Below, in pieces: positions 1,583 through 61,877 of a stretch of 64,000 nucleotides of DNA. Within the stretch, counting starts at the first letter, position 1, and each line of letters begins with the position of its first letter. Origin of the DNA: a virus; IMG/VR virus record IMGVR_UViG_3300007354_000004, positions 1 through 64,000 of that record, one strand, 5' to 3'. The notes beneath the pieces were generated by a model. It was not told where the DNA came from. It saw nothing but the letters and a program-made list of their open reading frames with translations, and did no database searches. Position numbers and translations under genes: made by a program.

Positions 1583-1603
1583 ATGGATAGGAGAGTAATA
1601 TGA
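1583..1603 (+). other. Six-codon leader ORF (MDRRVI) coupled to the glycosidase start
   Basis: A strong SD (AGGAGG at 1572-1577) precedes ATG 1583, which opens a six-residue frame. Its TGA stop overlaps the ATG of the glycosidase gene at 1600. The glycosidase has its own SD (AGGAGAG) inside the mini-ORF. This may be a translational-coupling leader; expression is untested. Confidence 0.35.
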
Positions 1604-3108
1604 AACAGCGTTTTCTAATAGCAAGTATTATTATACTTATCGCTCTGTTCTTTGTGCCTGTCTATGCCCAAGACGGCATTGATACACTCATTGAATTATT
1701 CGAGCGCGGGCTGCGGATTACGGGCGAAAGTACCTGTAACGATGGTGGTTGTTCCTATGATTTCACTGTGCGGGTAGCAGATGAAATTGTTATTCCTACA
1801 GTTACGTCTACTCCAACAGTGACTAATACGTCTACCTTTACACCAACAGCAACCAGCACATCCACACTAACGAATACGCCTGTTGTAACAGATGAGCCGC
1901 CTACTCCAACACAAGAGGTTACCGAGCTTCCACCCACATTTACCGAAACACCTGTTCCTAAAATGTGTGTACTGAAAAACGATAACAATGTGACGAATAT
2001 TCGTATTGGTCCTGGTACGAACTATGCTCGTATTACTGAGCAGTGGTCGTATGGGGAAGAAGCGCGATTTGATGAGTTTTTCGTGGGCGAAACCTATATG
2101 TGGGGCCACATGGAATTAGGTTGGGTTGTTGTTCGTAGTGGTACTTCCTGGTGGGTATACGGTACAGAAGGCACCGAGTTGTGTGATGAAGTTTCGGGCT
2201 GGCCTGCTGGACTCGACCCACCTGATAGAATAGTGGCTAATCCATTGACCGGGGCAACACGCCCCGGTATTCATTTTGCGTGGTTTTCTGACCGTGCCAG
2301 AGTAGCGCAAACAGCGCCCTACATCGGAATAGTCAAATGTCTTACACTATCAGGAACGATGTGCGAAACCGCCCGTAACCACAATTCTGATATGGTAACT
2401 GTTTTTCGTGATGTTCGCAGTGAATGCCCAAGCAGAGAACAGATATACACTGATCCAGATGGTTACTACGAAAGACTAAAGACGCTGTGGTCCGAGCATC
2501 CCAACTATGATTATTATGAAATTATGAACGAGTGCTCAGGATTGCGGGGCGCAGATGATTTTGCGGCGCTAGCGCAATTCAGTATTCGGGTAGCTGAGCG
2601 TGCTGCTGATGACGGGAGATGTATTCTCGCTCTATCAAGCTACCCCGGCTCGCCCGAACTAGACGAATTTATTCAGTTGGTTCCCTATTTCCAGTGGGCG
2701 GATACTCATCCCTGCGGTAAGTGGGAAACGGGCGCACCTAAATTTCACGGTTTAGCTACTCATGCAACAGGTTATTGTCCTTTCTCCACACCCAACTATC
2801 CCTGGGTTGGTTGGTCATGGGTTGCAGGTAGACACATACTGTTTGCTGAGGCGGTAGCACAAACTACGGGCTATCAGATAAAAGACAAAAATTGGCCCTG
2901 GTTGATCACTGAGTTGGGTTTCACATATGGACAGGATGAAGATGAAAATGCTTTTACAGCAGAAGAACTTCGCGCCTGCGTCGGTGAGACAACTGCTGTG
3001 TTAATTGAACAGGGAATTGTCAACGGATACATGCTATGGAACGTTGGCAAAGTGGGGGTGTGGTTAGATTACGTAAACTATTTACCTTTCATATTTATTT
3101 TTTGGTAA
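1600..3108 (+). CDS. Secreted SH3-linked glycoside hydrolase (clan GH-A-like)
   Basis: 502 residues in four parts. A Sec signal peptide (residues 1-23, MKQRFLIASIIILIALFF... then VYAQD) is followed by a short N-terminal region. A Thr/Pro-rich linker lies at ~65-122 (repeats of TPT, TST, TNT) and an SH3-like wall-binding domain at ~123-200 (NVTNIRIGPGTNYARI). The last part, ~210-490, looks like a TIM-barrel glycosidase. Candidate catalytic acids are E311 (MNECSG, typical N-E acid/base) and E438 (ITELGF, typical nucleophile), 127 residues apart as in clan GH-A. It probably cleaves a wall or capsule polysaccharide, for lysis or entry. The linker style is characteristic of Chloroflexota secreted proteins. 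The exact GH family is not assignable by eye. Confidence 0.7.
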   Translation: MKQRFLIASIIILIALFFVPVYAQDGIDTLIELFERGLRITGESTCNDGGCSYDFTVRVADEIVIPTVTSTPTVTNTSTFTPTATSTSTLTNTPVVTDEPPTPTQEVTELPPTFTETPVPKMCVLKNDNNVTNIRIGPGTNYARITEQWSYGEEARFDEFFVGETYMWGHMELGWVVVRSGTSWWVYGTEGTELCDEVSGWPAGLDPPDRIVANPLTGATRPGIHFAWFSDRARVAQTAPYIGIVKCLTLSGTMCETARNHNSDMVTVFRDVRSECPSREQIYTDPDGYYERLKTLWSEHPNYDYYEIMNECSGLRGADDFAALAQFSIRVAERAADDGRCILALSSYPGSPELDEFIQLVPYFQWADTHPCGKWETGAPKFHGLATHATGYCPFSTPNYPWVGWSWVAGRHILFAEAVAQTTGYQIKDKNWPWLITELGFTYGQDEDENAFTAEELRACVGETTAVLIEQGIVNGYMLWNVGKVGVWLDYVNYLPFIFIFW

Positions 3109-3605: not shown

Positions 3606-3633
3606 TTGACAAATATTCCTTTAGTGGTATACT
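3606..3633 (+). promoter_or_regulatory. Sigma70-like promoter of the glycan cluster
   Basis: -35 TTGACA (3606-3611), 16-bp spacer, -10 TATACT (3628-3633). An AGGAGG SD follows at 3649-3654 before ATG 3660. It is the only obvious promoter for the overlapping gene series 3660-12264. Confidence 0.8.
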
Positions 3634-3659: not shown

Positions 3660-4604
3660 ATGCTAGAAGGCAAAGTGTTGATCACGGGTGGTACGGGTAG
3701 TTTGTCTGAGCACCTTTTAGAGCGCGCCAACAACGAAAACTGGGACGCTGAGTTTATTATTTTTTCTCGCTCTGAATCACGTCAAGCACAACTAAAGCGG
3801 AAATATCCAAAGCATCGTTATGTGCTAGGTGACGTTGGTTTTATTGATGATCTTGAACGTGTAATGTGTGGAGTAGACACTGTTTTACACTTCGCAGCAT
3901 ACAAGCGAGTAGAAAGTGCGCAAAATAACGTAAGTGCTACGGTTAGAACTAATGTCATCGGTAGCGAAAACGTTGCACGATGTGCCGTTCGTTATGGTGT
4001 CAAACATGTTGTAGGAACATCCAGTGATAAAGCCGTTGAATCAGAATCAAACTATTACGGTCAAAGTAAAACCCTCATGGAAGGTCTTTTTAAAGAGGCT
4101 AATCAGTGGGGAAATACAGTATTTACCCTAGCTCGTTATGGAAACGTTCTAGGAAGCACTGGATCAGTTGCAGTTTTGTTTGATAAGCAAGTTAAAGCGG
4201 GAGGTCCACTTACAGTAACTTCACGCACAATGACACGCTTTTGGCTAACTTTTTCTCAGGCTATAGACATTGTTTTGCACGCTATGCAGCAAGAGCCAGG
4301 AACAATTACTGTTCCAAAAGCACACGCGAGTACGATGGAGACATTTGCACGAGCCTTTGTCCCTGATGGTATGTTAATAGATATTGTTGAAATTGGAACG
4401 CGACCCGGTGAAAAACAGTGTGAGAATATGGTGAGTTTGTCGGAGTCTCTTCACACCGATCAAGACGATAATTATTTTTATATTCGTCCGCCTAAAAACG
4501 ATCTGGTGTTGTATCAGGGAAAAGAGATGTTTCGATATACCAGCGATCAGGCTCCGCAGTTAACTGTTGACGATTTAAGAGAGATGATGGGACTTAATGT
4601 CTAA
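3660..4604 (+). CDS. NDP-sugar 4,6-dehydratase / epimerase (CapD/PseB-like SDR)
   Basis: 314 residues, an extended short-chain dehydrogenase. The N-terminal nucleotide-binding loop is TGGTGSLSEHLLERA. A GDVGFIDDL segment and VLHFAAYKRV follow, then the catalytic region TSSDKAVESESNYYGQSK with the YxxxK pair (Y..SK near 139-143). The SDKAVxxxxxYGxxK arrangement is that of CapD/PseB/FlaA1 enzymes, which act on UDP-GlcNAc by 4,6-dehydration (with or without 5-epimerisation). It would be the first committed step of a deoxy-amino-sugar pathway. The enzyme is soluble, without the N-terminal membrane part of FlaA1/WbpM-type proteins. It overlaps the next gene by 8 bp. Confidence 0.85.
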   Translation: MLEGKVLITGGTGSLSEHLLERANNENWDAEFIIFSRSESRQAQLKRKYPKHRYVLGDVGFIDDLERVMCGVDTVLHFAAYKRVESAQNNVSATVRTNVIGSENVARCAVRYGVKHVVGTSSDKAVESESNYYGQSKTLMEGLFKEANQWGNTVFTLARYGNVLGSTGSVAVLFDKQVKAGGPLTVTSRTMTRFWLTFSQAIDIVLHAMQQEPGTITVPKAHASTMETFARAFVPDGMLIDIVEIGTRPGEKQCENMVSLSESLHTDQDDNYFYIRPPKNDLVLYQGKEMFRYTSDQAPQLTVDDLREMMGLNV

Positions 4605-5130
4605 ATTAACCGCTCACCAACTCAATGAGACAGCGCAATACTGCTTTGGAGATGAGATAGAGTTTTTCCACGAAGTTTCTCTGTATTGGTGCGATAAAGC
4701 AGTTATGATCGGCGCTGGTCCTGGGGTTATGGCACTCGCCCTTTTAGAAGAACAGGACGAAGAGTTTGAGTTTGATATTATTGATGTCAATACTTGTCAC
4801 TGGATAAAGGCTCATCTAGAAGCGGCGGGGCTGTTACACGATAAGATTCACTTCATTCATGCTGACTCTAAGACCTGGGGTGAGATGTACGATGAACAGC
4901 CTATTTCCTTTTTGATTATCGATGGCGATCACTCTTACGAAGGTGTTTTGGGCGATCTCAGAACGTGGTATCCGCATGTCGAGCCTAAAGGGTTAATTTT
5001 TCTACATGACGTGATTGATCTTGAGCAAAACGGAACGAATGGTGTTCTACAAGCTATTCAGGATTTCGATCAGCCTTTGGAGTTGGTAGAGAAAGTAGGT
5101 ATCTCGCATGTCTACCGTAAACCTAGATGA
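4597..5130 (+). CDS. SAM-dependent methyltransferase (Methyltransf_24-like)
   Basis: 177 residues. A Rossmann-type SAM site is visible (VMIGAGPGVMALALL, followed by the acidic end of strand 2, DIIDVN). The hallmark IIDGDHSYEGVLGDL of the CmcI/family-24 methyltransferases follows, as does FLHDVID. These enzymes often methylate sugars or small metabolites, so a role in O-methylating the glycan made by this cluster is plausible but inferred. It overlaps both neighbours. Confidence 0.75.
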   Translation: MSKLTAHQLNETAQYCFGDEIEFFHEVSLYWCDKAVMIGAGPGVMALALLEEQDEEFEFDIIDVNTCHWIKAHLEAAGLLHDKIHFIHADSKTWGEMYDEQPISFLIIDGDHSYEGVLGDLRTWYPHVEPKGLIFLHDVIDLEQNGTNGVLQAIQDFDQPLELVEKVGISHVYRKPR

Positions 5131-5866
5131 GAGCATGAAGCCAACTAAAGTTTGTCGAAATTGTGGTGATGTATTTACATATGATCAACTGAAAAAAGAT
5201 AAAACACGTCAAGACGGCGTTACTAATTTATGTAAGTCATGCAGTAACGCTCGCGCTAGAGGGTATAGGCAACAACACCCAGAAGCCAGGGAGAAAGCTA
5301 GAGAATACTCTCGTGAATACTATAAGATACACCGAGAAGAAATTAGGGAGAAAAGTAAAACGTGGAGAAAGGCTAATAGAGAATATTTGATAGAAGCAGC
5401 GAAAAAGTGGAACCGAAAGAATCCAGAAAAACACGCTAAACATTCTCGCGACTATCACAAAAATCACCCAGATCGTGTATTAAAGCAAAAACAGCAATAC
5501 AGAGAAAACAACAGAAATCGTGTGTATTTGTTACGGCACAAACGTGAAGCTAGAAAGCGCGGCTTGCCCGATACTCTTTCTACAGAACAGTGGGAAATTT
5601 GTTTGAGATATTTCAATTTTAGGTGTGCGTATTGTGGGTGCAAAAGTGACACCTTTCACAGAGATCACTTTATCCCGCTAGCAAGTTCACATTGTACTGG
5701 TACAGTGGTTACTAATATAGTACCTGCGTGTGTGTCTTGCAATTGCAGTAAAAATAGTTCTGATCCTATTGTCTGGATAAATAGTATGTTTGATTTAGAT
5801 ACATCTAAGAAAATACTAAATAAAATTTATATTTATTTTTCTATGATGGAGAAAGAAAAATGCTAA
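5108..5866 (+). CDS. HNH endonuclease with N-terminal zinc ribbon (homing type)
   Basis: Up to 252 residues. Starts are possible at 5108 or 5135; neither has a strong SD. The N-terminus is a zinc ribbon (CRNCG ... CKSC, residues ~17-45). A long basic helical repeat follows (R/K-E-Y/W-R-x-N/H every ~16 residues, ~50-145), typical of DNA-contacting linkers. The C-terminal HNH fold runs CAYCG..., FHRDHFIPLA, NIVPACVSCN.SK. It resembles free-standing phage homing endonucleases and sits in the middle of an otherwise metabolic operon, so it is probably a selfish insertion. Confidence 0.85.
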   Translation: MSTVNLDESMKPTKVCRNCGDVFTYDQLKKDKTRQDGVTNLCKSCSNARARGYRQQHPEAREKAREYSREYYKIHREEIREKSKTWRKANREYLIEAAKKWNRKNPEKHAKHSRDYHKNHPDRVLKQKQQYRENNRNRVYLLRHKREARKRGLPDTLSTEQWEICLRYFNFRCAYCGCKSDTFHRDHFIPLASSHCTGTVVTNIVPACVSCNCSKNSSDPIVWINSMFDLDTSKKILNKIYIYFSMMEKEKC

Positions 5867-6465
5867 ATCGAGTATTATTTTTATCTCCACATCGAGATGA
5901 CGAAATATTAGGTGCGGGAGGAACTTTACCACAGTGTAATGAGTTAACCGTTATGTATTTTAACTATGTTCATCCTTTAGTTGAACAGTCAGTTTATGAC
6001 TCTGAAGCTGAGGCAGTTAGAAAAACACTACAGTGTGACACTATTTATAGTGAACATATGGCAGTAAACTGTTTAGATCAGTTTCCGCTTGTAAACTTTA
6101 TTTCAGAAATAGAAGATATTATAAACTGGATAAAACCCACTACTGTTTTTATACCAATGAAATCTAGAAATCAAGATCATTGTGTGATTTATAATGCATC
6201 TTCTGTAGCTTTACGTCCACACGATAAAAATTGGTTTGTACCAAACGTTTTAATATACGAACAGTCGGAGTACACAAACGAAAATTTTATACCTCATGTG
6301 TTTATAAAAATTGATATAAAAGTTAAATTATCGTTGTGGAATCTGTATAAATCTCAACACCGAGGACATCGTACTAAAAAACACCTTTGTCATTTAGCCG
6401 GAGTGCGGGGAATGCAGTGTAATGTACCCTATGCCGAGGCATTTCAGGTTATGAGGCTGTCATGA
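5860..6465 (+). CDS. PIG-L (LmbE)-family N-acetylglucosaminyl deacetylase-like
   Basis: 201 residues. It begins with the metal-binding signature LFLSPHRDDEILGAGGT, a variant of the usual PHPDDE with Arg for Pro. A second metal ligand region is RNQDHCVIYNA. The family removes N-acetyl groups from GlcNAc-type sugars in a Zn-dependent way. Together with the downstream formyltransferase it suggests a deacetylate-then-formylate route to an N-formyl amino sugar. The AT-rich codon use differs slightly from its neighbours, like the preceding HNH gene. Confidence 0.8.
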   Translation: MLNRVLFLSPHRDDEILGAGGTLPQCNELTVMYFNYVHPLVEQSVYDSEAEAVRKTLQCDTIYSEHMAVNCLDQFPLVNFISEIEDIINWIKPTTVFIPMKSRNQDHCVIYNASSVALRPHDKNWFVPNVLIYEQSEYTNENFIPHVFIKIDIKVKLSLWNLYKSQHRGHRTKKHLCHLAGVRGMQCNVPYAEAFQVMRLS

Positions 6466-7190
6466 TTACAGTCGTTATCCCCGTAGGTCCGCAGTCAGTT
6501 TATAAGAAATATCTACCTGAAGCATTAGAGAGTCTTAAATATCAAACTGAACCTCCCGATGAGATTTTGATTATTGATGACATGGCGGATCTGAATATCA
6601 ACGATTTGTGGAAGCAGATTAATACGGGCATTGTCGATGATATTCTACCCGCACTGTATTACGATAATCGGGGAAAATTTTCCATCGGAAATCTGTCTTA
6701 CTGGAAATGCCCCTGGTTGTCGGGAGTAGCTCATGCCTTTAACTACGGAGTTGCTCTGTCTAAAAATGAGTGTGTTTTTATGCTGGGCAGCGATGATCGC
6801 ATGTATCCGACCTGTCTCGAAGAATGCTGGAAAGAATACGAAAAGCAGGATAAACGGGATGGGTGGTATAATGTAACGATTGTAACTGAAAGTGGAAATC
6901 TTATGTCTTTGCCTAACAACACCTGCATGGTAACGAAAAATCTATGGAAAAAGACAGGCGGGTTTCCCGTTCAAGCGACATTGGGCGGTCCAGACGCTCT
7001 ATTGTTATCGATCATGCTGGTACATTTTCGTGGAACGATATTTCAGGTTAAAGAAGGCACCCCCCTGTGCTGGTTGAGAGAGCACCCTGAGCAAGCTACC
7101 AAACGCGATGCAGCCTTTTATAACAAACTCGTGATTGATGTGCGAAACAAAGAAACCGAGAGATGGAAAAAACCAGTATGGACAAAATAA
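6462..7190 (+). CDS. Family 2 (GT-A) glycosyltransferase
   Basis: 242 residues. The N-terminus is typical of GT2 (MITVVIPVGPQS...YLPEALESLKYQT...P.DEILIIDD). The donor-metal motif is represented by LGSDDRMYP near 108, and the acceptor-side segment GGPDALLLS lies near 180. It uses nucleotide sugars to extend a glycan. The 4-bp ATGA overlap with the deacetylase and 28-bp overlap with the formyltransferase show a tight operon. Substrate unknown. Confidence 0.85.
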   Translation: MITVVIPVGPQSVYKKYLPEALESLKYQTEPPDEILIIDDMADLNINDLWKQINTGIVDDILPALYYDNRGKFSIGNLSYWKCPWLSGVAHAFNYGVALSKNECVFMLGSDDRMYPTCLEECWKEYEKQDKRDGWYNVTIVTESGNLMSLPNNTCMVTKNLWKKTGGFPVQATLGGPDALLLSIMLVHFRGTIFQVKEGTPLCWLREHPEQATKRDAAFYNKLVIDVRNKETERWKKPVWTK

Positions 7191-8110
7191 TCTTCGTGGG
7201 AGCGGTCGAACTCAGCGCCCACGCTTTAGATCAGTTGATGAAGAACGACTTTCATCCTGAGTTGGTGATCACACTCCACAAAGAATTACATTATAGACAT
7301 TCTGACTGGTTCGATCTGGAATTGATTACGTCCTCTCCAATTCTGAGGGTGGACGATATCAACCATCCCGATGTTGTTAAGAAGATTAAAGAGATCGATC
7401 CGGATTATATTTTTGTGTTTGGCTGGTCCCAACTCATTAAATCTGAGATTTTAAACTATAAATGTTTGGGTCTGCACCCTTCTCTGCTACCTAAAGGTCG
7501 GGGGCGAGCGGTTATTCCGTGGGCAATTTTGACTCAGCAAGACAAGACAGGTGTTTCTATCTTTCATCTTGATTCAGGCGTTGATTCTGGTCCGCTGGTA
7601 TCCCAACGAGAAATTAACTTAGATCCCAGAGAGACAGCCCGTAGCCTTTATACAAAGGTGATCGATGCTACGCGGGATATGGTCGATGAGTTGTGTCTCT
7701 TTATGCGTAATGGGTGGGAGATACCATCTTTACCTCAGATGGGCGATCCGACTTATTTTGCCAAAAGAACGCCCGAAGACGGAAATATCGACTGGAATCT
7801 GAACGCTTTCGATATTGAGAGGCTGATTCGTGCTGTTGGTAATCCTTATCCTGGAGCCTTTTCGTATTACAAAAACAAGAAAGTCATTATCTGGGAAGCA
7901 GAAGCAATCAAGAAGTATAACTACACAGGTGTTGTTGGGCAGATTCTGGATTACGCAGACTATGGGCATGTCGTAGTACAGTGTGGATCAGGTTATTTAA
8001 TCATCAAACACATCGAAATAGACGGAGAACAAAAAGTTCCGACCGCAATTCTGAAAGTAGGTAGCCGATGGAGCCGATCTGGATTATACTTACCACCTAC
8101 AAACGGTTAG
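7163..8110 (+). CDS. Formyltransferase (sugar N-formyltransferase-like)
   Basis: 315 residues (an alternative ATG lies at 7178). The N-terminal catalytic domain has the family signature LHPSLLPKGRGRAVIPWAI, TGVSIFHLDSGVDSGPLV and RETARSLY. The C-terminal ~100 residues match the Fmt/ArnA C-terminal beta domain (FDIERLIRAVGNPYPGAF). The catalytic His and the Asp of DSGVDSG are present. The Asn that precedes His by two residues in classical Fmt is Gly here (GLH). The location in a sugar cluster argues for formylating an amino sugar rather than Met-tRNA, using N10-formyl-tetrahydrofolate. Confidence 0.82.
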   Translation: MEKTSMDKIIFVGAVELSAHALDQLMKNDFHPELVITLHKELHYRHSDWFDLELITSSPILRVDDINHPDVVKKIKEIDPDYIFVFGWSQLIKSEILNYKCLGLHPSLLPKGRGRAVIPWAILTQQDKTGVSIFHLDSGVDSGPLVSQREINLDPRETARSLYTKVIDATRDMVDELCLFMRNGWEIPSLPQMGDPTYFAKRTPEDGNIDWNLNAFDIERLIRAVGNPYPGAFSYYKNKKVIIWEAEAIKKYNYTGVVGQILDYADYGHVVVQCGSGYLIIKHIEIDGEQKVPTAILKVGSRWSRSGLYLPPTNG

Positions 8111-8742
8111 ATCTCGCTGAAATAACCATTCGAGGTTTGAAAGAGAACTTCCGATACGACAATATAGGGTGGATCATCACTGATGACGGATCTGGTCCTG
8201 ATCATCTAAACCACCTTGTCTCGGTTGTAGGTCCATCTTATACCGTTTTTACTTATGATGGCAACCGCAAGGGTGTCGGGCACAATATGAACTGGGCTTT
8301 ACATAAAGTTTTCGATGATCTAGGCGGCAGTTTAATTCTGATGATGGAAGACGACTGGCATCTGGAAAAACCGCTGGATGTCGAGCCTTACACAAAAGTT
8401 CTGCTGAATAACCCGAATGCGGGTATGATTCGCTTTGGGTATGCCGCAGCAGGATTAGAGGCTGAACTTGTCTCACACGACAATCGGTTGTTATGGGACT
8501 TACACAGAAACAGCTACACTTACAGATTCACGGGCCATCCTTCTCTACGTCATAAACGATTTCATGAGACTTACGGGTATTACGCGGAAGGGCTTGCGCC
8601 CGGTCTTACAGAGTTGGATATGTGCGCCAAAGTTAACGCCAAAGATGGACCAAGAATTTATATCCCGTATGAGTTTAATCAGTGGGGCGCATTCGGACAT
8701 ATTGGATCAGAGTCTTTAGCAGACGTGGAGCCAGAGAAATGA
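8068..8742 (+). CDS. Glycosyltransferase (GT2-like)
   Basis: 224 residues. A GT-A pattern is visible: IWIILTTYKRLDLAEITIRGL, then WIITDDGSG, GVGHNMNWAL and the donor-metal motif LMMEDDW near residue 93. The C-terminal half (TGHPSLRHKRFH ... LTELDMCAK) probably binds the acceptor. It overlaps the formyltransferase by 43 bp and the reductase by ATGA, so it belongs to the same translational unit. Confidence 0.75.
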   Translation: MEPIWIILTTYKRLDLAEITIRGLKENFRYDNIGWIITDDGSGPDHLNHLVSVVGPSYTVFTYDGNRKGVGHNMNWALHKVFDDLGGSLILMMEDDWHLEKPLDVEPYTKVLLNNPNAGMIRFGYAAAGLEAELVSHDNRLLWDLHRNSYTYRFTGHPSLRHKRFHETYGYYAEGLAPGLTELDMCAKVNAKDGPRIYIPYEFNQWGAFGHIGSESLADVEPEK

Positions 8743-9518
8743 TACTCGTCTTAGGTCAGGGACTTTTAGGTAAAACCCTCTCGAAGCTATATCCCGATAC
8801 CGTAGGTATTGGACACGAAGATTTTGACATCTGCAGCCCAGAGCAAGTTTACGCGATACTGGATTTATATAAGCCAACTCACATAATTAATTGTGTTGGA
8901 GTGGTGCCTAAATCTCCCATATATGAATCTCACATGGATGTTTTAAAGGTTAACGGGTTTGGGCCGAGACTATTAGCCGAAGCCTGTTTAGATGTAAATT
9001 GCCGCGTTATTCACATCTCAACCGACTGCGTGTTTTCAGGCTCTACAGGGAACTATTCAGAATTTGACATTCCTAATTCCGATACATTATATGGCATCAG
9101 TAAATACTTCGGAGAGATTACTTACTATAATAACGTTGTATTTCGAACATCCTTCGTCGGTTTTCCCGATCCCACTCAGCGCGGACTTTTGTATTGGTTT
9201 AAATACGCTGAAAATCCGGTTGAGGGGTATGTCAACTCGTGGTGGAACGGTTTGACGACTGTTGAGTTGTCACATTACATCATGAGTCATCTCGATATTA
9301 TTTCGGGATTACATCACGTCTCGAATAAGACACACATCAATAAACATGATCTTTTGGTTCTAGCCAACGAAGTTTACGGGTGGGAGAAAGAGATTATTCC
9401 TGTCGAAGATCCAAAGTTAGATCGAACGCTGTACAGTGAAACGATTGATAAATCTTACCGAGAGATGTTTGAAGAGATGAAGGCACAACTAGGAGATCTG
9501 GATGAAGGTCTATCTTAA
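8739..9518 (+). CDS. RmlD-like dTDP-4-dehydrorhamnose reductase family SDR
   Basis: 259 residues from the ATG that overlaps the previous stop (ATGA at 8739). The NAD(P) loop is ILVLGQGLLGKTL; INCVGVVPKSP, ISTDCVFSG and the catalytic YGISKYFGE (YxxxK) follow, in the order seen in RmlD proteins. It would reduce a 4-keto sugar, possibly the product of the dehydratase at 3660. Whether the product is rhamnose-like or another deoxy sugar cannot be read from the sequence. Confidence 0.82.
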   Translation: MILVLGQGLLGKTLSKLYPDTVGIGHEDFDICSPEQVYAILDLYKPTHIINCVGVVPKSPIYESHMDVLKVNGFGPRLLAEACLDVNCRVIHISTDCVFSGSTGNYSEFDIPNSDTLYGISKYFGEITYYNNVVFRTSFVGFPDPTQRGLLYWFKYAENPVEGYVNSWWNGLTTVELSHYIMSHLDIISGLHHVSNKTHINKHDLLVLANEVYGWEKEIIPVEDPKLDRTLYSETIDKSYREMFEEMKAQLGDLDEGLS

Positions 9519-12264
9519 CCCTTCGTTTGATAAGCCCGACAAAGGTGATGGCGGTATTCGCCGTGTGGTGGAGGCACAAAGAAAATATCTACCTGAGTTT
9601 GGCGTAGAGTTTGTTGATACACCCGGCGAAGCAGATGTTGCTAACTGTCACGCTACATCCTTTGTCGATCACGATACATTGGTATTGAGTCTACACGGAC
9701 TGTATTGGGCAGAGTATGACTGGCCCAAGTGGTATTTACAGGTTAATGATTCTCTGATTAAGAGCATGAAAAGCGCCAAAGCAGTCACCGCCCCGTCTGA
9801 GTGGGTGGCGAATGCTGTGCGGCGGGGAATGCTGATCGATCCAGTCGTATGTTATCACGGTATCGATGTTGAAGATTGGACTCCCGGCAAAAGTAAAAAC
9901 TACGTGTTGTGGAATAAAAATCGCGTTGATACGGTCTGCGATCCAGCACCCATGAATCGACTGGCTTTTCTGGATTCGTCTGTTCCGTTTGTGTCAACTT
10001 TCGGGGAGAAGACATCTAACGTCACGCTGACGGGTAAACTCTCGTATGAGAAGATGAAATCTTATATTCAAAATGCGGGCGTGTATCTGGCAACCTCTAG
10101 AGAGACGTTGGGGGTTGGGACACTCGAAGCGATGGCGTGTGCTACACCTGTCTTGGGGTGGAACTACGGTGGACAGCGAGAGATCGTTCGACACGGGGTA
10201 ACAGGCTATCTGGCTGAATACGGAAATTATGATGATCTGTTAGATGGATTACATTATTGTTTGGATCATCAAGACGAACTAGGAGCAAACGCTCGTCAAG
10301 ATGTACTAGAGAATTGGAGATGGGAACGTGTTATTCAAAGCTACCTACGCGCCTACCAGCAAGCCCTCGCCATCGACTACGGACCAACAGTTAGCGTTGT
10401 GGTCACGGCTTATAACCTGGATCAATATCTACCAGACGCCCTGCAATCGGTCAAGGATCAAAAATTCAAAGACTGGGAGTGTATCGTCGTCAACGACAAC
10501 TCCCCCGACACCTGTGGAGCAATAGCCGAAGCGTTTGCGCAAGAAGATGATCGTTTCAAAGTCATCCACAATCCCAAGAATGTTTATCTAGCCGAAGCTC
10601 GAAATATAGGCATTCAAAATTCAACCGGAAAGTATGTTATTCCGCTGGATGCCGACGATATGTTGGGCGAGGACGCTTTGGGGAGATTGGTTAGGGCGCT
10701 CGATCAAAATCCTCAGTTGGATATCGTCACCGGCTCGATGGAGCTTATTGAGGAAAACGGACACCGCTGGGTGTCTAAGTGGCCTAATGCTAAAACCGTG
10801 AGCTTTTCCGAGCAGATTAAAAAAAGAAATCAGATTCCTTATGCGTCTCTCTATCGTAGAGAAGTCTGGGAGCGCACCGGAGGTTATCGGAGGCGGATGA
10901 GATCGGCAGAAGACGCGGATTTCTGGACGCGAGCCTTTTCTTACGGATTCATTCCAAGTAAAGTTACCGAAGCGCCGACTCTTATTTACAGAAATCGATC
11001 TTCTTCGATGAGTCACACTGAATCGGAGCCAAACTGGATCTCGTGGTTCACCTGGGCGACATACGAACACCTGGTACCTTTCGGAGTTGGTGGTCCGGTG
11101 TGGTCTTACGGTCCTCCTTTGATCTCAGTAGTGATTCCAGTTGGACCGCTGCACGTTCCTTTCTTGCAGGACGCTTTAGACTCTTTAGTAGGACAAACCC
11201 TTAAAGAGTGGGAATGTATCGTTGTCAATGATACCGGAAAACCCCTGACTTTGCCTGGATTTCCGTTTGTGAAAGTTGTCGATGGCGGCAAGCAAGGCAC
11301 GGCTCACGCTCGTAACGTAGGCTTTGAGCACGCCAGTTGTGAGCGGGTGGTTCTGTTGGATGCGGACGATTATATGCAGCCGCATATGTTGATGACGCTC
11401 TATCAAGCCTCTCTGGAAACGGATGGGTATTTATACTCGGATTGGTGGGCGGATGATGGGGAGAAAGTCTACCGCGAACACGCGAAATCGTGGGATCCAG
11501 AACAACTTAAACTGCAGTCTTTAGGTCCGGTGATCGGCTTATACTGGAAAGAAGATTGGAAGAAGGTGGGTGGATTTAGCGAGGACGCGCCTGGGTGGGA
11601 AGATTGGGATTTTCATCTTAAATTACTGGAAAACTGTATTTGTGGCAGTCGCATCCCTCACCCCCTGTTCACTTATCGGTATAGACTGGGCTTAAATCGA
11701 GATAAGGATTTTGCTAATAAGAAAACTCTGTTAAAATATATAACAGGGCGACATAAGGATCTCTATGGAGGACGTATGGGTTGTCAAGGATGTTCTAAGC
11801 GAAATGATTTGATTGTCAAAGAGGCTAAACGAACACTCGTGTCTTCTAACGACGAGCAGATTACGGTTGAGTATATTGGACCGGGGCTTAACAAGCGTCG
11901 GATTCCGAGTCACGTCCGGCGCGGACACTATTATACCTACAGCGCCACTCAGCGTATCTTTGACATTTACAAAGCCGAAGCGGATCGTTTTCTGAGCCGA
12001 CCGAGCGAATTTAGGGTACATCGAGAAACTATTCAAAACGAAATTCCGCCTTCGGATGAGCCAGTCATTGTAGCTGAAAAAGTTGTCGTGCCGCCGCGCT
12101 CGATTGAAAACCTCGATATCGATGGGGATTTGATCGCAAGACTGCGCAAAGAAGGCATTACAACGATTGAACAACTCCGGTTGATGAATGACGGATCGCT
12201 GTTGAAAATTCGAGGAATCGGTCCGTCTCGGTTAGCCGCTATCCGCGAAGCGTTAAATGTTTGA
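9502..12264 (+). CDS. Trifunctional GT4-GT2-GT2 glycosyltransferase with C-terminal HhH
   Basis: 920 residues. A GT4/GT-B-like domain fills 1-~290 (APSEWVANAV, YHGIDVEDW, SRETLGVGTLEAMACATP, then the E.v..G.tGyL region). A first GT2 domain fills ~295-525 (VSVVVTAYNLDQYLPDALQS, VVNDNSPD, PLDADDM). A second GT2 fills ~535-745 (LISVVIPVGP, VVNDTGKP, LLDADDYMQP). A CxxC-containing basic segment (GCQGCSKR) leads to a small domain (VEYIGPGLNKRRIPSHV), and the last ~55 residues form a helix-hairpin-helix (LRKEGITTIEQL ... LLKIRGIGPSRLAAIREAL). It could add three sugars in succession. The HhH may anchor it to DNA or mediate assembly; this is unresolved. Confidence 0.85.
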   Translation: MKVYLNPSFDKPDKGDGGIRRVVEAQRKYLPEFGVEFVDTPGEADVANCHATSFVDHDTLVLSLHGLYWAEYDWPKWYLQVNDSLIKSMKSAKAVTAPSEWVANAVRRGMLIDPVVCYHGIDVEDWTPGKSKNYVLWNKNRVDTVCDPAPMNRLAFLDSSVPFVSTFGEKTSNVTLTGKLSYEKMKSYIQNAGVYLATSRETLGVGTLEAMACATPVLGWNYGGQREIVRHGVTGYLAEYGNYDDLLDGLHYCLDHQDELGANARQDVLENWRWERVIQSYLRAYQQALAIDYGPTVSVVVTAYNLDQYLPDALQSVKDQKFKDWECIVVNDNSPDTCGAIAEAFAQEDDRFKVIHNPKNVYLAEARNIGIQNSTGKYVIPLDADDMLGEDALGRLVRALDQNPQLDIVTGSMELIEENGHRWVSKWPNAKTVSFSEQIKKRNQIPYASLYRREVWERTGGYRRRMRSAEDADFWTRAFSYGFIPSKVTEAPTLIYRNRSSSMSHTESEPNWISWFTWATYEHLVPFGVGGPVWSYGPPLISVVIPVGPLHVPFLQDALDSLVGQTLKEWECIVVNDTGKPLTLPGFPFVKVVDGGKQGTAHARNVGFEHASCERVVLLDADDYMQPHMLMTLYQASLETDGYLYSDWWADDGEKVYREHAKSWDPEQLKLQSLGPVIGLYWKEDWKKVGGFSEDAPGWEDWDFHLKLLENCICGSRIPHPLFTYRYRLGLNRDKDFANKKTLLKYITGRHKDLYGGRMGCQGCSKRNDLIVKEAKRTLVSSNDEQITVEYIGPGLNKRRIPSHVRRGHYYTYSATQRIFDIYKAEADRFLSRPSEFRVHRETIQNEIPPSDEPVIVAEKVVVPPRSIENLDIDGDLIARLRKEGITTIEQLRLMNDGSLLKIRGIGPSRLAAIREALNV

Positions 12265-22158: not shown

Positions 22159-24542
22159 CTTACCCCTCAGACCTATATGAAGTTCGTCTCTACGACGAAG
22201 ATTCAAATTTCGTCACTATTCTGCAGGGCTGGTCTGTCCTCGAATACTGGCAGCGGCTTAACGCGCCGTGGAACCATACCATTCGTTACGATCTTTCCTA
22301 CGATGATCCCCGTCTCGAAACTTTGAGATCGATTGGTCCAGACTGGTTTTATTTAATTTACAGGACAGATCCTGTGACACTGGACAAGGATAAAGTCTGG
22401 GAAGGATTTCACCAGACAACCGTCGATCAGGCGCGAGAGAATGGCGACATCATTTTAACTCTTTACGGTCAGGGCTATACTGAGTGGTTGAATCGTAGAG
22501 TCATTATTCCTCCCGTGGCGGACTGGGAAGTTCACGAAGTTACTGCTGCCGCAGGTACAGCTATCAAAGAGTACGTGGCTTTTAATATGCTCACGGGATC
22601 GGTACCCGATGCTGACCGCGCTATGCCAGGTTTTGCGGTTGCCGCCGCCCCAGATGGAGGCAACACAGTCACTTATTCGCCCCGCTACACAAACCTTTTA
22701 ACAGCGTGTCAGACGCTAGCCGAAGACGGAAATGTGAAATTCGGCATTGTCGGAGCAGACGATCCGCCCGTCACCTTTGCACTATACACCCGCGAGATTT
22801 GGGGGCTGGATCGACGCATCAACTCCACCAATCCCGACAAAGGCGATCCCATGCTCTTTGATTTCATGAAAAAGAACATGGACATTCCCATTCTATCCAA
22901 GAACTATTCCGAGCAAAGAACGGTTGTTTACGTCGCCGGTACGGGAGTAGGTATCAAGCGCAAGTTATTGGAACTCTCTAATCTCACGGCTTTAGCTGAG
23001 TCACCCCGCATCCGAAAAGAGGCTTACATTGACAGTCGCGGTGCTGAATCAAACGCCGAGATGCTCACAGTCGGTCGTTCTTATCTAGAAAAAAATGCCG
23101 CCAAGAAAAGTGTCACTTTTAATTTAAGACAGAACGAATCTACTCGCTGGATGCGCGACTTTAATCTGGGCGATATCGTCACTGCTAAATACTTTGACCA
23201 TCTCGAATCAAAAGAAATTAAAGAAATTCACGTCACAGTCAATACGTCCAGAGATACAACCTTCATCGAGCGCATTGACGTAGAAATGGACGGTTTATCG
23301 GACGCAATGGTCGAATATCTGGCAGAATGGACTATCGACTATGAAGATCCATATCCGTTCGAGCCAGTTGTCGAAGTTGGTCCGTGGGCTTTACTGGACG
23401 GAACACAAAAAATTGCCGCCTTTAGAACAGATGGTTATTTGTATAGAACATCTAACTTTACCGCCGCAAATCCTACATGGAATCAAACAGACATGGGAGT
23501 TGACGGACTTCCTGCTAATTTTGTGGTAGACGCTTTCTCGCCAGGATATGTAGGGGGCGGAACGGAGGTTAATGGGTGGCTATTTACTACCACAAAAATA
23601 TATCGTGTCACCGATATTTTTGGCACTCCTGTTTTTACAGAACAACACACATTAAGTTCTTATTTCAAAGCGCCCCCCCTTAACTATCCTACTTATGGTG
23701 AATACCTAACCCAAGCTATGGCAGATGCTAGTTTCGGCATTCAGGGGCATGTGGTGTTGGCCTGGAAAACGTCCTCTTGGACCACACGTGTTGCCTATAC
23801 GACTAACAGCGGGGCCGTTTGGACGGAGGTTGAGGTAGCGGGTGCTGCTGTAAGTGCCGTTCCGTGGCCGAGTTGTTACGTGTCGTCGAAAACAGCAGGG
23901 TTGGTGATTATTACAGGTGGTGAAACGGGCACGTCGGCAGGTAAAGGATACAGAAGCACCGATTATGGGGCAACGTGGTCCAAAATCACGTCGCATGGCC
24001 CCCGCTCTCCCCTGATGCTTTTGTCTAAACACGGTGGGGGGGAGATGCACATTCCTTTCCACGACAATGATGATGAAAATATTGTTTACTACAACGTGGT
24101 AAGCACGACGTCAAATTTTGACGACACAAAAATGTGGCGCACGTTGGCTGACGGAAGTTCCGGGGAAATTTCCCCACAGCCGGGCGGCATCATAGGAACG
24201 CGCCGTGTTTCTCCGTGGAGAACTCGTTGGGGAGTTGTAAGCTCTTTTCAAAATAGAAATTACATGGCCTTTTGTGGTCAAGGTAGTTGGACAACAGATC
24301 CCTGGTACCTTTACACCAGCGAAGATGCAGGATCTACGTGGACACTAAGACAGGGACCAAATACAGGCTATCGCAGGGTTGCTATTGCGGGAGATACAAC
24401 TACATCGCTTTATTTATGGGGTACTCAATACTCAATAGCCTATTCAAACGACTTTGGCGCAACTATTCAATCAAAAGCCGGAAACTTATCTGACTTTTAC
24501 TCAGACACCAATAACGAATTCATAGGAATTTGCGGCGGTTAA
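22155..24542 (+). CDS. Tail tip protein, ReqiPepy6 Gp37-like, with C-terminal beta-propeller
   Basis: 795 residues. The first ~400 follow the Gp37-like tail-hub pattern (LYEVRLYDEDSNFVTIL, YGQGYTEWLNRRVI, SYLEKNAAKKSVTFNL, FNLGDIVTAKY). The last ~390 form a beta-propeller with Asp-box-like repeats (YTTNSGAVWTEVEV, YRSTDYGATWSKI, YTSEDAGSTWTLR, YSNDFGATIQSK). The propeller probably contacts a host-surface glycan. It is the second tail protein in this window with such an appendage. Confidence 0.78.
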   Translation: MTYPSDLYEVRLYDEDSNFVTILQGWSVLEYWQRLNAPWNHTIRYDLSYDDPRLETLRSIGPDWFYLIYRTDPVTLDKDKVWEGFHQTTVDQARENGDIILTLYGQGYTEWLNRRVIIPPVADWEVHEVTAAAGTAIKEYVAFNMLTGSVPDADRAMPGFAVAAAPDGGNTVTYSPRYTNLLTACQTLAEDGNVKFGIVGADDPPVTFALYTREIWGLDRRINSTNPDKGDPMLFDFMKKNMDIPILSKNYSEQRTVVYVAGTGVGIKRKLLELSNLTALAESPRIRKEAYIDSRGAESNAEMLTVGRSYLEKNAAKKSVTFNLRQNESTRWMRDFNLGDIVTAKYFDHLESKEIKEIHVTVNTSRDTTFIERIDVEMDGLSDAMVEYLAEWTIDYEDPYPFEPVVEVGPWALLDGTQKIAAFRTDGYLYRTSNFTAANPTWNQTDMGVDGLPANFVVDAFSPGYVGGGTEVNGWLFTTTKIYRVTDIFGTPVFTEQHTLSSYFKAPPLNYPTYGEYLTQAMADASFGIQGHVVLAWKTSSWTTRVAYTTNSGAVWTEVEVAGAAVSAVPWPSCYVSSKTAGLVIITGGETGTSAGKGYRSTDYGATWSKITSHGPRSPLMLLSKHGGGEMHIPFHDNDDENIVYYNVVSTTSNFDDTKMWRTLADGSSGEISPQPGGIIGTRRVSPWRTRWGVVSSFQNRNYMAFCGQGSWTTDPWYLYTSEDAGSTWTLRQGPNTGYRRVAIAGDTTTSLYLWGTQYSIAYSNDFGATIQSKAGNLSDFYSDTNNEFIGICGG

Positions 24543-28550: not shown

Positions 28551-29408
28551 TTATATCTTAATGTAGTGTACTGCGCTCTCGCCTACACGCATAGGCTCCA
28601 TATAAATCTCGGTCGTCTTGACCGACGAATGTCCTAACTGCTTCTGAATAGCGCGAATAGGAGCACCACCTTCATCTGCCAACTTAGCCGAAGTGCGGCG
28701 AAGATCGTGCGGTCGCACATCGTATTTCTTCATAATCTTATTGAGCGAGGTCTTGTTCAGCCTATCTCCCAGATTACCGTGCCGGTCAATCGACACCAGA
28801 ATGTAATCCTTGTAGTTGTCTTCGCGCCACAACTGAAACAGCGGAACATAACGATCTGGAATTTCGGGGTGGCGGATCTTATTGCCCTTGCCAACGACAT
28901 TTGCCAACAACCACACCCCGTCTTGCTGAATGAGTTGTTCCCACTTAACTGATACCGCCTCTTCTCGTCGCAAACCAACGATCATCATCAAGACAATTGC
29001 AACCTTGTCTCTCAGCAAATCGGCTTTTTCCAGTAAGGCATGGGCTTCATCTTCGTCCAACCACTCACGCCACGTCTCACCCGACTGGCGGACATTCGAG
29101 ACGAGACGGATACCTTCATACATCTCGTGCGTGATCAACTCGTGAATGTAGGCGTAACGGAAAAACTCACGCACCGCCGACAGTTTCTTATTGACGGTTG
29201 CGGGAGCATACTCTTTCTTGAGTTCCATCTTATACGCCGTGAAAACTGACACGGGCGACTGAAACGGGTTGGCCTGCTTACGCGCAATCGAAAACCGCAA
29301 GAAACTGACAATCGAAGCGCGGTAGGATTCACGCGACAGCGGAGACAGGTTCTCCAACAAAGTATTCAAAATTTCTTCGACTACATTCCGCTCGTATAGG
29401 GTTAGCAT
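28551..29408 (-). CDS. Tyrosine recombinase (integrase/XerC-D type)
   Basis: 285 residues from ATG 29408, chosen because its SD (AAGGAAGGA) lies downstream of a consensus promoter; longer starts would overlap the -10. The N-terminal SAM-like domain (SRESYRASIVSFLRFSIARK, ATVNKKLSAVREFFRYAY) precedes the catalytic domain. Catalytic residues are visible: Arg in IVGLRREEAVSV, Lys in KGNKIRHP, HDLRRT (H-x-x-R), LGHSSVKTTEIYM (His and nucleophile Tyr). It could integrate the phage or resolve genome multimers. No attP core could be identified. Confidence 0.9.
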   Translation of the reverse strand: MLTLYERNVVEEILNTLLENLSPLSRESYRASIVSFLRFSIARKQANPFQSPVSVFTAYKMELKKEYAPATVNKKLSAVREFFRYAYIHELITHEMYEGIRLVSNVRQSGETWREWLDEDEAHALLEKADLLRDKVAIVLMMIVGLRREEAVSVKWEQLIQQDGVWLLANVVGKGNKIRHPEIPDRYVPLFQLWREDNYKDYILVSIDRHGNLGDRLNKTSLNKIMKKYDVRPHDLRRTSAKLADEGGAPIRAIQKQLGHSSVKTTEIYMEPMRVGESAVHYIKI

Positions 29409-29430
29409 CTCATCCTTCCTTTCTAACATC

Positions 29431-29459
29431 ATTATATCAGGAAAGATTCGCAGTGTCAA
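29431..29459 (-). promoter_or_regulatory. Consensus promoter of the integrase
   Basis: -35 TTGACA (29454-29459), 17-bp spacer, -10 TATAAT (29431-29436): a perfect sigma70 consensus. The -35 overlaps the end of the upstream gene. Confidence 0.85.
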
Positions 29460-46035: not shown

Positions 46036-46638
46036 CTAGAACGAAAGATTCTTGAACAGCCGGGCGAGCGCAGGAACGTCCTCATTTTCAAGACAATCTA
46101 AGTACGTGTTTCGGTTGCGCTGCGAGATCAGGATAAAGGGTAGGTTTAAATAAGTCGCGTTATGGTTGAGCACCATACGGGCGATCCGTCCGTTCCCGTC
46201 TGAATACGGGTGGATCTGAGTCAATTTCAAATGAATCTCTGCCAGAATTGTATAGGGATCCTCCCTGGAGGACAGCCACCATAGCATATCATGATACCAA
46301 TTTCTCATTAACAGGGGAATATGATTGTAACGCGGCGGCACGAACGACGATCCCTTGATATACACGTCGCATGTTCTATAATATCCCCCGTACGGGAATA
46401 ATTCGGCGTGTAAGTTCAGAAGATCGCCGGGGGTGGGGATGTATCCGGCTTCAGCCCAATCAACAATAGTTTTCATCGCGTAACAGTGCCGGGGGTTTGA
46501 CTGTTCAAATTCCACAAGATCCGAAGCTTCGGCCAACGTGCACACCTTTACCTCTCTTTCGTGAATGAGCATCAGTTTATATAGTCTCTCATCTTCAGGC
46601 GTGATTCCTAGTTGTGCATATACGTTCTGCCATGACAT
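46036..46638 (-). CDS. Fic domain protein (putative AMP-transferase)
   Basis: 200 residues from ATG 46638 (GGAAAGG upstream). The Fic core HPYSDGNGRIARMVLNH carries His, Asp, GNGR and Arg of the HPFxxGNGRxxR motif (Tyr for Phe). Helices before it (YNHIPLLMRNWYHDMLWWLS, ILAEIHLKLTQIHP) fit the fold. Upstream, EASDLVEFEQ is only a partial match to the inhibitory S/TxxxE(G/N) motif, lacking the G/N. It may modify a host target by AMPylation or a related transfer. Confidence 0.85.
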   Translation of the reverse strand: MSWQNVYAQLGITPEDERLYKLMLIHEREVKVCTLAEASDLVEFEQSNPRHCYAMKTIVDWAEAGYIPTPGDLLNLHAELFPYGGYYRTCDVYIKGSSFVPPRYNHIPLLMRNWYHDMLWWLSSREDPYTILAEIHLKLTQIHPYSDGNGRIARMVLNHNATYLNLPFILISQRNRNTYLDCLENEDVPALARLFKNLSF

Positions 46639-46686
46639 AATAGACCTTTCCACAAAGGACGAAAATAAATATAAGTATAAATTAGT

Positions 46687-54238: not shown

Positions 54239-54267
54239 TTGACTTCTCCTGCCTTTGATGGTACTCT
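54239..54267 (+). promoter_or_regulatory. Promoter of methyltransferase gene
   Basis: -35 TTGACT (54239-54244), 17-bp spacer, -10 TACTCT (54262-54267). Confidence 0.55.
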
Positions 54268-54284
54268 CGTCTGTGGAGGCGCTT

Positions 54285-54980
54285 ATGATTCAATTAAACC
54301 GCATCTACAATCAAGATTGTCTGGATACAATGTCGCGCATTCCTGATGGGTTTGTGGATCTTACGATCACTTCTCCGCCCTATAACTTGGGCAATACTCA
54401 TCACACAGGGAACAAGCGACATCAGCCTTATGACGATAATATGCCAGAAGACGAATATCAGCAGTGGCAAATTAAAGTTTTGGAAGAGTTATATAGGATC
54501 ACTAAACCAACCGGTAGTTTAATTTACAACCACAAGAACAGGATCAGAAAGGGTGTATCTATAACGCCCTATATCTGGTTATTACAGACTTCTTGGATTA
54601 TTAAGCAGGAGATAGTTTGGTTTAATGGCAGTCAGAACTTTGACAAGATCCGCTTTTATCCTATGACTGAGCGGTTGTATTGGCTGGCAAAATCTCCAAA
54701 AACTAAATTGTTTAATGCAATTAGTCATCACGATTTATTTGATACAAAGGAGTGGAAAGCAGAAGGCACGAATAAGAATCATACACGTAGTTTTCCTTTG
54801 AAAATGGTTCAGGATGTATTGCTGTGTTTTCCTGATGCTAAGGTTATATATGATCCTTTTATGGGAAGTGGAACAGTGGCGGTAGCGTCTATTCTGTCAG
54901 GTAGAGATTATATTGGTAGTGAGATTTCTTCTGATTACTGTACATTATCTGAATCTGAAGTATTAGGTGTGTGGTCTTGA
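54285..54980 (+). CDS. DNA methyltransferase (N4-cytosine/N6-adenine, beta class)
   Basis: 231 residues from ATG 54285 (GGAGG 5 bp upstream). The catalytic motif IV (TSPPYNLG) is near the N-terminus and the SAM motif I (DPFMGSGTVAVAS) near the C-terminus, the beta-class order. RIYNQDCLDTMSRIPDGFVD is the usual start. No restriction enzyme gene lies beside it, so it is probably a solitary protective methylase. Confidence 0.88.
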   Translation: MIQLNRIYNQDCLDTMSRIPDGFVDLTITSPPYNLGNTHHTGNKRHQPYDDNMPEDEYQQWQIKVLEELYRITKPTGSLIYNHKNRIRKGVSITPYIWLLQTSWIIKQEIVWFNGSQNFDKIRFYPMTERLYWLAKSPKTKLFNAISHHDLFDTKEWKAEGTNKNHTRSFPLKMVQDVLLCFPDAKVIYDPFMGSGTVAVASILSGRDYIGSEISSDYCTLSESEVLGVWS

Positions 54981-56774: not shown

Positions 56775-57206
56775 ATGACTAAGTATGGGACGGGTGATCG
56801 GGTTGTTTTGAAGAGGCACATTCTGTCTTATCTGGATGGTCCAACGGATCCACGACCGGGCGCAACGGGAACTGTTGTTTGGGCAGAGGATATTCTTGAG
56901 GTTGAATTTGACGGTTATGGTGTGTATAGAGTACGCGATTATATGCTACGAAAACTAACTTCTGATGAGATAATTCAGGAAATTACAGCACGAGCAGAAG
57001 CGTCTAGTGGGGGTGATTGGAGCGCCAGTATTAATTCGGACGGAGAGCTGATCATTACTATCGATGATCCAGAACAGACCGCCATAATCTGGTGTGGTGA
57101 TATGGAGACGTGTACGAGTAAAGACCTGAATAATCACAAGTTTCTAGCTAATGCTCGTAAAGACATCATGTTTTTATTGCAGTACATAAAGAATCAGCAT
57201 GATTAA
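56775..57206 (+). CDS. Hypothetical protein (KOW/SH3-like start)
   Basis: 143 residues from ATG 56775 (AGGAGAG). The N-terminal ~60 residues (GTGDRVVLKRH ... GATGTVVWAEDILEVEFDGY) look like a small SH3/KOW-type barrel; the rest is alpha/beta. Overlaps the next methylase by 8 bp. Confidence 0.6.
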   Translation: MTKYGTGDRVVLKRHILSYLDGPTDPRPGATGTVVWAEDILEVEFDGYGVYRVRDYMLRKLTSDEIIQEITARAEASSGGDWSASINSDGELIITIDDPEQTAIIWCGDMETCTSKDLNNHKFLANARKDIMFLLQYIKNQHD

Positions 57207-57927
57207 TCGAGTTATGTGTGGGGATTGTCTCGCCCTACTGCCAGAAATTGAAGACTCCAGCGTGGATATGGTCTTGTGTGATCTTCCTTACGGGACGACG
57301 CAATCTAAGCGAGATGTGGAGATCGATTTAGATTTATTGTGGGATCAATATCTGCGTGTTTGTAAGGAAAATGCGGCGATTGTCTTGTTTGCGCATAACC
57401 AGTTTACGTTTAAGTTGGCGTTGTCCAGATTTGATCTGTATAGATATAAGTATGTGTGGATCAAGAATAAATCCACCAATCACTTAAATTCTAGAAAGAT
57501 GCCGCTGCGCGCTCATGAGGATATTCTAGTTTTCTATCGTAGCTTGCCTACTTACAATCCTCAGTTTAGTTACGGACATAAGCCTATGAATTGGGCCAGA
57601 AAAAAGAGGTCGAGCAACGTTTATGGTGAGGAGAAACGAGTCGTGAATGACGCCGGAACAACTCGCAGGTATCCGAATGATGTTCTGTATTTTGACGTGG
57701 TGAATAATGACGATCCAGAAAGAATCTGTGAATTTCAGAAGCCGGTTGATCTGTGCGAATTTTTGATTAGAACCTATACCAATCTAGGCGATGTTGTACT
57801 GGATAACGCGATGGGATCCGGTTCTGTGTGTCTGGCTGCGCGAAATACAGGTAGACTATCTATCGGAATTGAGATCGATCCTGTATTGTGCGAGAAAGCC
57901 TACCAGCGGTTGGCTGAGTTTATTTAG
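57199..57927 (+). CDS. DNA methyltransferase (beta class)
   Basis: 242 residues. MCGDCLALLPEIEDSSVDMV, motif IV LCDLPYGTTQSKRD, motif I VVLDNAMGSGSVCLAARNTG. The middle (MPLRAHEDILVFYRSLPTYN) is typical of phage N4/N6 methylases. Second solitary methylase of this arm. Confidence 0.88.
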   Translation: MINRVMCGDCLALLPEIEDSSVDMVLCDLPYGTTQSKRDVEIDLDLLWDQYLRVCKENAAIVLFAHNQFTFKLALSRFDLYRYKYVWIKNKSTNHLNSRKMPLRAHEDILVFYRSLPTYNPQFSYGHKPMNWARKKRSSNVYGEEKRVVNDAGTTRRYPNDVLYFDVVNNDDPERICEFQKPVDLCEFLIRTYTNLGDVVLDNAMGSGSVCLAARNTGRLSIGIEIDPVLCEKAYQRLAEFI

Positions 57928-61490: not shown

Positions 61491-61877
61491 ATGGATCAGA
61501 TTCGTGAATACGACGATTTAACACTGAATCTGTTGGTGGCTCATCTGTTAGGCTGGACGAATTTATATATGCAGGTATCATTTGGTGATGAGTGGTCTAT
61601 TCACGGTACTACGCCCGGTGGTTTAGAGCAGTCTGTGCCTAATTTTACAGAAGATCTTTCATTGACACTTGATTTATTGAAGGATAACTTTTGGCAGTTA
61701 TATTACCAAAGTGATAGATTTATGGGTCTGGTGACATCTGATATATCAGATTTAGAGTTTCATATGGAGTATGCAGATTCACCGCCTAGATCTTTAGTTT
61801 TGTCGTGGGTATCTTGGAAAATTTCGGAGATTCAGCGTTTAAATCCTATCAAGCCCTTAAGGAGACTGTATGGATAA
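61491..61877 (+). CDS. Phage ABA sandwich domain protein, copy 2
   Basis: 128 residues from ATG 61491, only 8 nt after the tRNA 3' end and without an SD; an in-frame GTG lies inside the tRNA and is unlikely. MDQIREYDDLTLNLLVAHLL GW and VPNFTEDLSLTLDLL parallel the gene at 58609. RNase P/Z processing of the tRNA would leave this mRNA almost leaderless. Confidence 0.62.
   Translation: MDQIREYDDLTLNLLVAHLLGWTNLYMQVSFGDEWSIHGTTPGGLEQSVPNFTEDLSLTLDLLKDNFWQLYYQSDRFMGLVTSDISDLEFHMEYADSPPRSLVLSWVSWKISEIQRLNPIKPLRRLYG

Follow-up and report, generated by a model that had tools for sequence, protein, structure and literature searches.

A predicted phage cassette for an N-formylated deoxysugar, and the association of PIG-L deacetylases with formyltransferases lacking the usual asparagine

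A modular gene cassette of an uncultured tailed phage probably makes an activated 2-formamido-6-deoxysugar, with which virion proteins are decorated. This reading draws on gene families, active-site residues, gene associations and conservation of the locus, all of which were observed directly; as a prediction, the chemistry of the pathway is well supported by gene association. Host UDP-GlcNAc would be converted by a PF02719 enzyme to a 4-keto-6-deoxy intermediate (UDP-4-keto-6-deoxy-HexNAc), which an RmlD-like enzyme would reduce to UDP-6-deoxy-HexNAc. The 2-N-acetyl group would be taken off by a PIG-L deacetylase, and an ArnA-like formyltransferase (FT) with N10-formyl-THF would then yield a 2-formamido-6-deoxyhexose, possibly also O-methylated. 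Soluble glycosyltransferases (GTs) would assemble a short glycan, with the formamido sugar in terminal or internal position, on structural proteins, most likely of capsid or tail. Substrates, order of steps, formylated carbon, stereochemistry, O-methylation and target are what we infer from the genes.

The window, i.e., the whole stretch of DNA analysed, is taken from the record of an uncultured virus (81,155 bases), of which it covers bases 1-64000, and its terminase, tape measure and minor tail proteins indicate a tailed phage. From 3660 to 12264 on the plus strand, the ORF list contains nine overlapping or abutting ORFs, given here with their flanking features:

3606..3633, plus strand: promoter-like site TTGACA-16-TATACT with an extended -10 TG; 11/12 sigma-70-like consensus matches
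3660..4604, plus strand: UDP-GlcNAc 4,6-dehydratase (PF02719), soluble short form of the PseB/FlaA1/CapE type; Pfam E 1.3e-64
4597..5130, plus strand: SAM methyltransferase (Methyltransf_24); Pfam E 7.9e-15, weak TylF match
5108..5866, plus strand: HNH/endonuclease VII-like gene; phrog_1035 E 1.4e-31 (PHROGs)
5860..6465, plus strand: PIG-L family de-N-acetylase; Pfam PF02585 above cut-off
6462..7190, plus strand: GT2 glycosyltransferase (GT2a); Pfam E 5.7e-12, sister homologue 39% identical
7163..8110, plus strand: sugar N-formyltransferase (FT) with ArnA-like N and C domains; Pfam Formyl_trans_N+C
8068..8742, plus strand: GT2 glycosyltransferase (GT2b); Pfam E 1.1e-6, same-locus homologues in relatives
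8739..9518 (listed ORF start 8682), plus strand: RmlD-like short-chain reductase; Pfam E 3.9e-19, PDB RmlD matches
9502..12264, plus strand: 920-aa glycosyltransferase with GT4, GT2 and GT2 domains (Pfam) and a weak C-terminal helix-hairpin-helix
12257..12532, plus strand: small membrane protein closing the cassette; phrog_781, hydrophobic segment, homologues in relatives

A preliminary description had named an overlapping series of dehydratase, methyltransferase, PIG-L, FT, RmlD-like and GT genes, and profile searches confirmed every one of these families. All enzyme families of the series score above the curated Pfam cut-offs, in the order PF02719, Methyltransf_24, PIG-L, GT2, Formyl_trans_N+C, GT2, RmlD and GT4+GT2+GT2 (920 aa); the HNH endonuclease gene at 5108-5866, which is sub-threshold in Pfam, had been overlooked in that inventory. 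The cassette enzymes all lack membrane segments. As described earlier, the series ends at structural genes: the 3' border is formed by the gene for the small membrane protein, after which the head-tail adaptor region follows. The candidate promoter lies directly 5' of the first cassette gene, with an AGGAGG ribosome-binding site after it, and is the top plus-strand score of a region whose total promoter count is as chance expects. At 1600-3108, the window encodes a 502-aa protein with a hydrophobic N terminus and a Thr/Pro-rich linker; the homologue encoded by the sister phage is 31% identical, and a Pfam search gave no match.

Judged by gene content, the series is not a chance arrangement, because the sister phage (G001), whose terminase is 62% identical to that of the window phage, has most of these genes at the corresponding locus. 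Dehydratase, Methyltransf_24, RmlD, both GT2 and the large GT occupy the same position there (37-49% identical), and PIG-L, FT and HNH genes were not found in the G001 cassette; the difference in PIG-L and FT looks as if one chemistry step had been added. Downstream of the capsid gene of more distant relatives, the locus again opens with a PF02719 dehydratase, and a GT4-GT2-GT2 protein stands last before the head-tail adaptor in G004, G005 and G008. The genes in the middle vary: G004 carries a DegT aminotransferase, a GHMP kinase and a cytidylyltransferase-like gene, G005 an RmlD gene. All relatives examined have the cassette within their structural operon, with the major capsid gene on one side and the head-tail adaptor on the other. 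The locus appears to be a swappable module at which relatives exchange sugar genes, and this exchange suggests that the phages change their virion glycan coat. Between capsid and GT genes, the sister phage also encodes a sortase-family protein (PF04203; L109 14079-14546, minus strand; G001 23078-23545). A search of 398 genomes of Chloroflexota (the phylum of the Thermoflexus locus), run without a positive control, gave no relative of the terminase, and no capsid or adaptor matches were found in 50,697 phages.

Among PDB sequences, the dehydratase matches CapE and FlaA1 best; its homologue in the sister phage is 40% identical. The active-site residues Asp-Lys (DK) and YxxxK (YYGQSK) are present, and the third glycine position of GxxGxxG is occupied by Ser. 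The enzyme is not assignable to the PseB or FnlA equivalog, reaching 209 of 408 and 170 of 730 bits needed, respectively. The RmlD-like gene probably starts at the ATG at 8739, which overlaps the preceding stop, because the sister homologue is without the extra 19 residues; an alignment including the homologue of the huge phage LR745206 gives the same start. The pair of dehydratase and RmlD-like enzyme is consistent with a 6-deoxy product, in line with the deoxy sugar envisaged in the preliminary description.

The Methyltransf_24 protein, 39% identical to its sister-phage homologue, is a possible sugar O-methyltransferase. O-methylation of the sugar is still a guess, since this gene is kept in the sister phage, which has neither PIG-L nor FT. 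The HNH gene sits between the methyltransferase and PIG-L genes, the latter having the lowest GC content of the cassette (34.7%). No homologue of the HNH gene was found in the sister phage. It is probably a mobile endonuclease outside the pathway, and it may have helped to bring in new genes.

In the PIG-L protein, His11, Asp13, Asp14 and Asp106-His107 are invariant in the family alignment, and the metal site of HxDD and a second His is present, as are the base residues typical of PIG-L proteins. Matches of its family profile include diacetylchitobiose deacetylase, BshB and MshB, which take the 2-N-acetyl group off GlcNAc units. The FT was modelled by AlphaFold with a pLDDT of 92.4, and the nearest structure is the ArnA formyltransferase domain (TM 0.83/0.86). 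Its motif reads G-x-H-P where N-x-H-G is usual, such that the Asn-His-Asp triad is incomplete: Gly103 stands for Asn, while His105 and Asp141 are present and invariant. This Asn-to-Gly replacement is common to the whole PIG-L-linked bacterial clade described below. Conservation suggests that the window FT is active; the Asn-less site is the main doubt over the chemistry of the pathway.

Single-sequence scans for relatives of FT and PIG-L gave no matches; alignment queries succeeded. Searching bacterial genomes with an FT alignment yielded 80 loci. In the bacterial FTs nearest to that of the window, a PIG-L gene follows directly. PIG-L is adjacent to 17 of the 19 Gly-type (G-x-H) FTs and to none of the 60 Asn-type (N-x-H) ones (Fisher p 2e-15, a value that ignores shared ancestry and overstates independence). 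The FT tree places the window FT inside the PIG-L-linked clade with a support of 96/89, and in Sphingomonas cavernae FT and PIG-L form a single ORF.

Phage PIG-L loci from IMG/VR have an overlapping or abutting FT in 12 of 80 cases, and 11 of these 12 belong to the 13 loci closest to the window PIG-L. In the contigs L144 and L145, dehydratase, FT, PIG-L and RmlD genes are contiguous, all four being Pfam-confirmed in L144. The short FTs of these phages group in a clade of their own, mostly with Cys at the Asn position; therefore, the FT/PIG-L pairing seems to have originated more than once. In the huge phage LR745206, homologues of the dehydratase, FT and RmlD genes lie close together, the FT being directly preceded by a NodB-type deacetylase, so that another deacetylase family seems to take the place of PIG-L. 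Two findings count against a paired route: L134 and L135 have PIG-L at the same locus with no nearby FT, and in the window itself a GT gene stands between PIG-L and FT. A further deacetylase-FT pair was seen in Cytophagales (L065 5589-7231), where a gene for a WbmS-like deacetylase (PF22537) precedes and overlaps a second FT gene. The gene upstream of FT in L065 and L013 was dropped as a deacetylase candidate, its fold model having a pLDDT of 56 and meaningless structure matches. Several matches in the phage collection look like bacterial housekeeping fmt loci (e.g., L003, by its glyS, priA and def homologues) and were left out.

DegT aminotransferases usually supply the amine of N-formyl sugars. 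None was found in the 81-kb record, which may be incomplete, by a search whose positive control succeeded in 14 of 14 genomes. At the sequence level, this absence and the gene association argue strongly for the deacetylate-then-formylate route suggested in the preliminary description. We regard it as improbable that the G-x-H enzyme instead transfers another group or is inactive, with PIG-L yielding a free-amine sugar. Such an outcome would fit the absence of the catalytic Asn, the residue being Gly in the window and the bacterial clade and mostly Cys in the short phage FTs, as well as the PIG-L genes of L134 and L135; against it stand the invariant His and Asp of the triad, the confident ArnA-like model, and the conservation of the FT across phyla in repeated pairing with a deacetylase.

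Compared with known systems, the window FT shares the two-domain fold and the active-site His and Asp of the N-formyltransferase domain of ArnA, which formylates UDP-L-Ara4N. It differs by Gly in place of Asn and by having no decarboxylase domain, and its partner gene encodes a deacetylase, whereas that of ArnA is an aminotransferase (ArnB). The DegT-dependent N-formyl pathways (Qui4NFo, Ara4NFo and perosamine type) use a DegT/DnrJ aminotransferase, an enzyme not found in the record. A likely precedent for deacetylase plus formyltransferase is given by the Bordetella O-antigen genes wbmS/wbmT, likewise a non-amination route to an N-formyl sugar; WbmS, however, is a polysaccharide-deacetylase-type enzyme of a bacterial O-antigen, the window enzyme a PIG-L protein of a phage. 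The UDP-FucNAc pathway of FnlA/FnlB (CapE/CapF) resembles the cassette in its dehydratase family followed by an RmlD/SDR reductase. In contrast, the short cassette reductase lacks the extra FnlB domain, the dehydratase falls far short of the FnlA and PseB cut-offs, no FnlC 2-epimerase was seen among the cassette ORFs, and PIG-L and FT are added.

The large GT is conserved in five further phages (36-50%), each of its three domains retaining its motifs. Outside the cassette, a further GT-like gene (L011 2725-3390; record 66725-67390) has a 51% identical sister homologue just after the capsid gene.

Three targets had been proposed for the glycan: tail proteins, host surface and phage DNA. Virion proteins are favoured because of the position in the structural operon, the soluble GTs and the absence of GtrA and Bac_transf genes from the record, and the two other targets are less favoured. 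In mycobacteriophages Che8, Corndog and Myrna, phage GTs decorate capsid and tail tube (Freeman 2023, as cited in PMC12619734 and PMC12363180), and virion proteins are most likely the target here as well. Phage-encoded GTs are common to both systems; the citations in PMC12619734 and PMC12363180 mention no dedicated nucleotide-sugar pathway for the mycobacteriophages, and the window phage belongs to an unrelated lineage.

It is unlikely that the same sugar chemistry modifies the host surface instead, in serotype conversion or superinfection exclusion. Bacterial FT-PIG-L relatives do occur among surface-polysaccharide genes; for example, the Salinicoccus locus L030 includes Bac_transf, and the Erythrobacter locus L019 a DegT gene, a GT4 and a CapD homologue. 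An integrase family gene at 28551-29459 also makes lysogeny possible. On the other hand, neither the GtrA flippase (PF04138) nor a Bac_transf initiating transferase was found in the record, so that Gtr-type serotype conversion finds no counterpart in it, the cassette enzymes being free of membrane segments and the cassette being placed in the structural operon of all relatives examined. The integrase family gene encodes a tyrosine recombinase (PF00589, minus strand), also present in the sister phage, for which lysogeny or dimer resolution are possible roles. A Fic/DOC family protein is encoded at 46036-46653 on the minus strand.

Glycosylation of phage DNA by the cassette is very unlikely. For this target speak the C-terminal helix-hairpin-helix of the 920-aa GT, which resembles the RNA polymerase alpha CTD, and the location of PIG-L genes near GT and ParB genes in two phages, Summit (Stenotrophomonas) and DanielleIgnace (Arthrobacter); hypermodification of DNA by phage GTs has a precedent as well (Pyle 2024, as cited in PMC12619734). 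However, the helix-hairpin-helix match is below the Pfam cut-off and limited to window and sister phage, the homologous GTs of four relatives having none, and the record contains no gene of the thymidylate synthase/hydroxymethylase family. Three N6/N4 DNA methyltransferase genes are located in the window (54255-54980, 57199-57927 and 61870-62985).

While N-formyl sugars, PIG-L enzymes and phage glycosyltransferases are already known, in the open literature searched we found no description of a PIG-L plus FT pathway or such a phage cassette, nor of the pairing of PIG-L with Asn-less FTs, its four-gene phage unit or a swappable locus on the capsid side. At somewhat less than even confidence, we propose that phages and bacteria share a widespread, previously undescribed N-formyl route free of transamination, in which PIG-L and an Asn-less FT subfamily (G/C-x-H-P) would convert the 2-acetamido group of a UDP-6-deoxyhexosamine to 2-formamido, and by which phages would vary their virion glycan coat. 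If true, dehydratase, reductase, deacetylase and FT would constitute a compact four-gene route to N-formyl sugars for which no aminotransferase is needed, and a function would be predicted for an FT subfamily without the usual catalytic Asn. The conserved capsid-side locus would be the place at which an uncultured phage lineage exchanges sugar-biosynthesis genes, and the question why phages make their own rare sugars would become directly testable by glycoproteomics.
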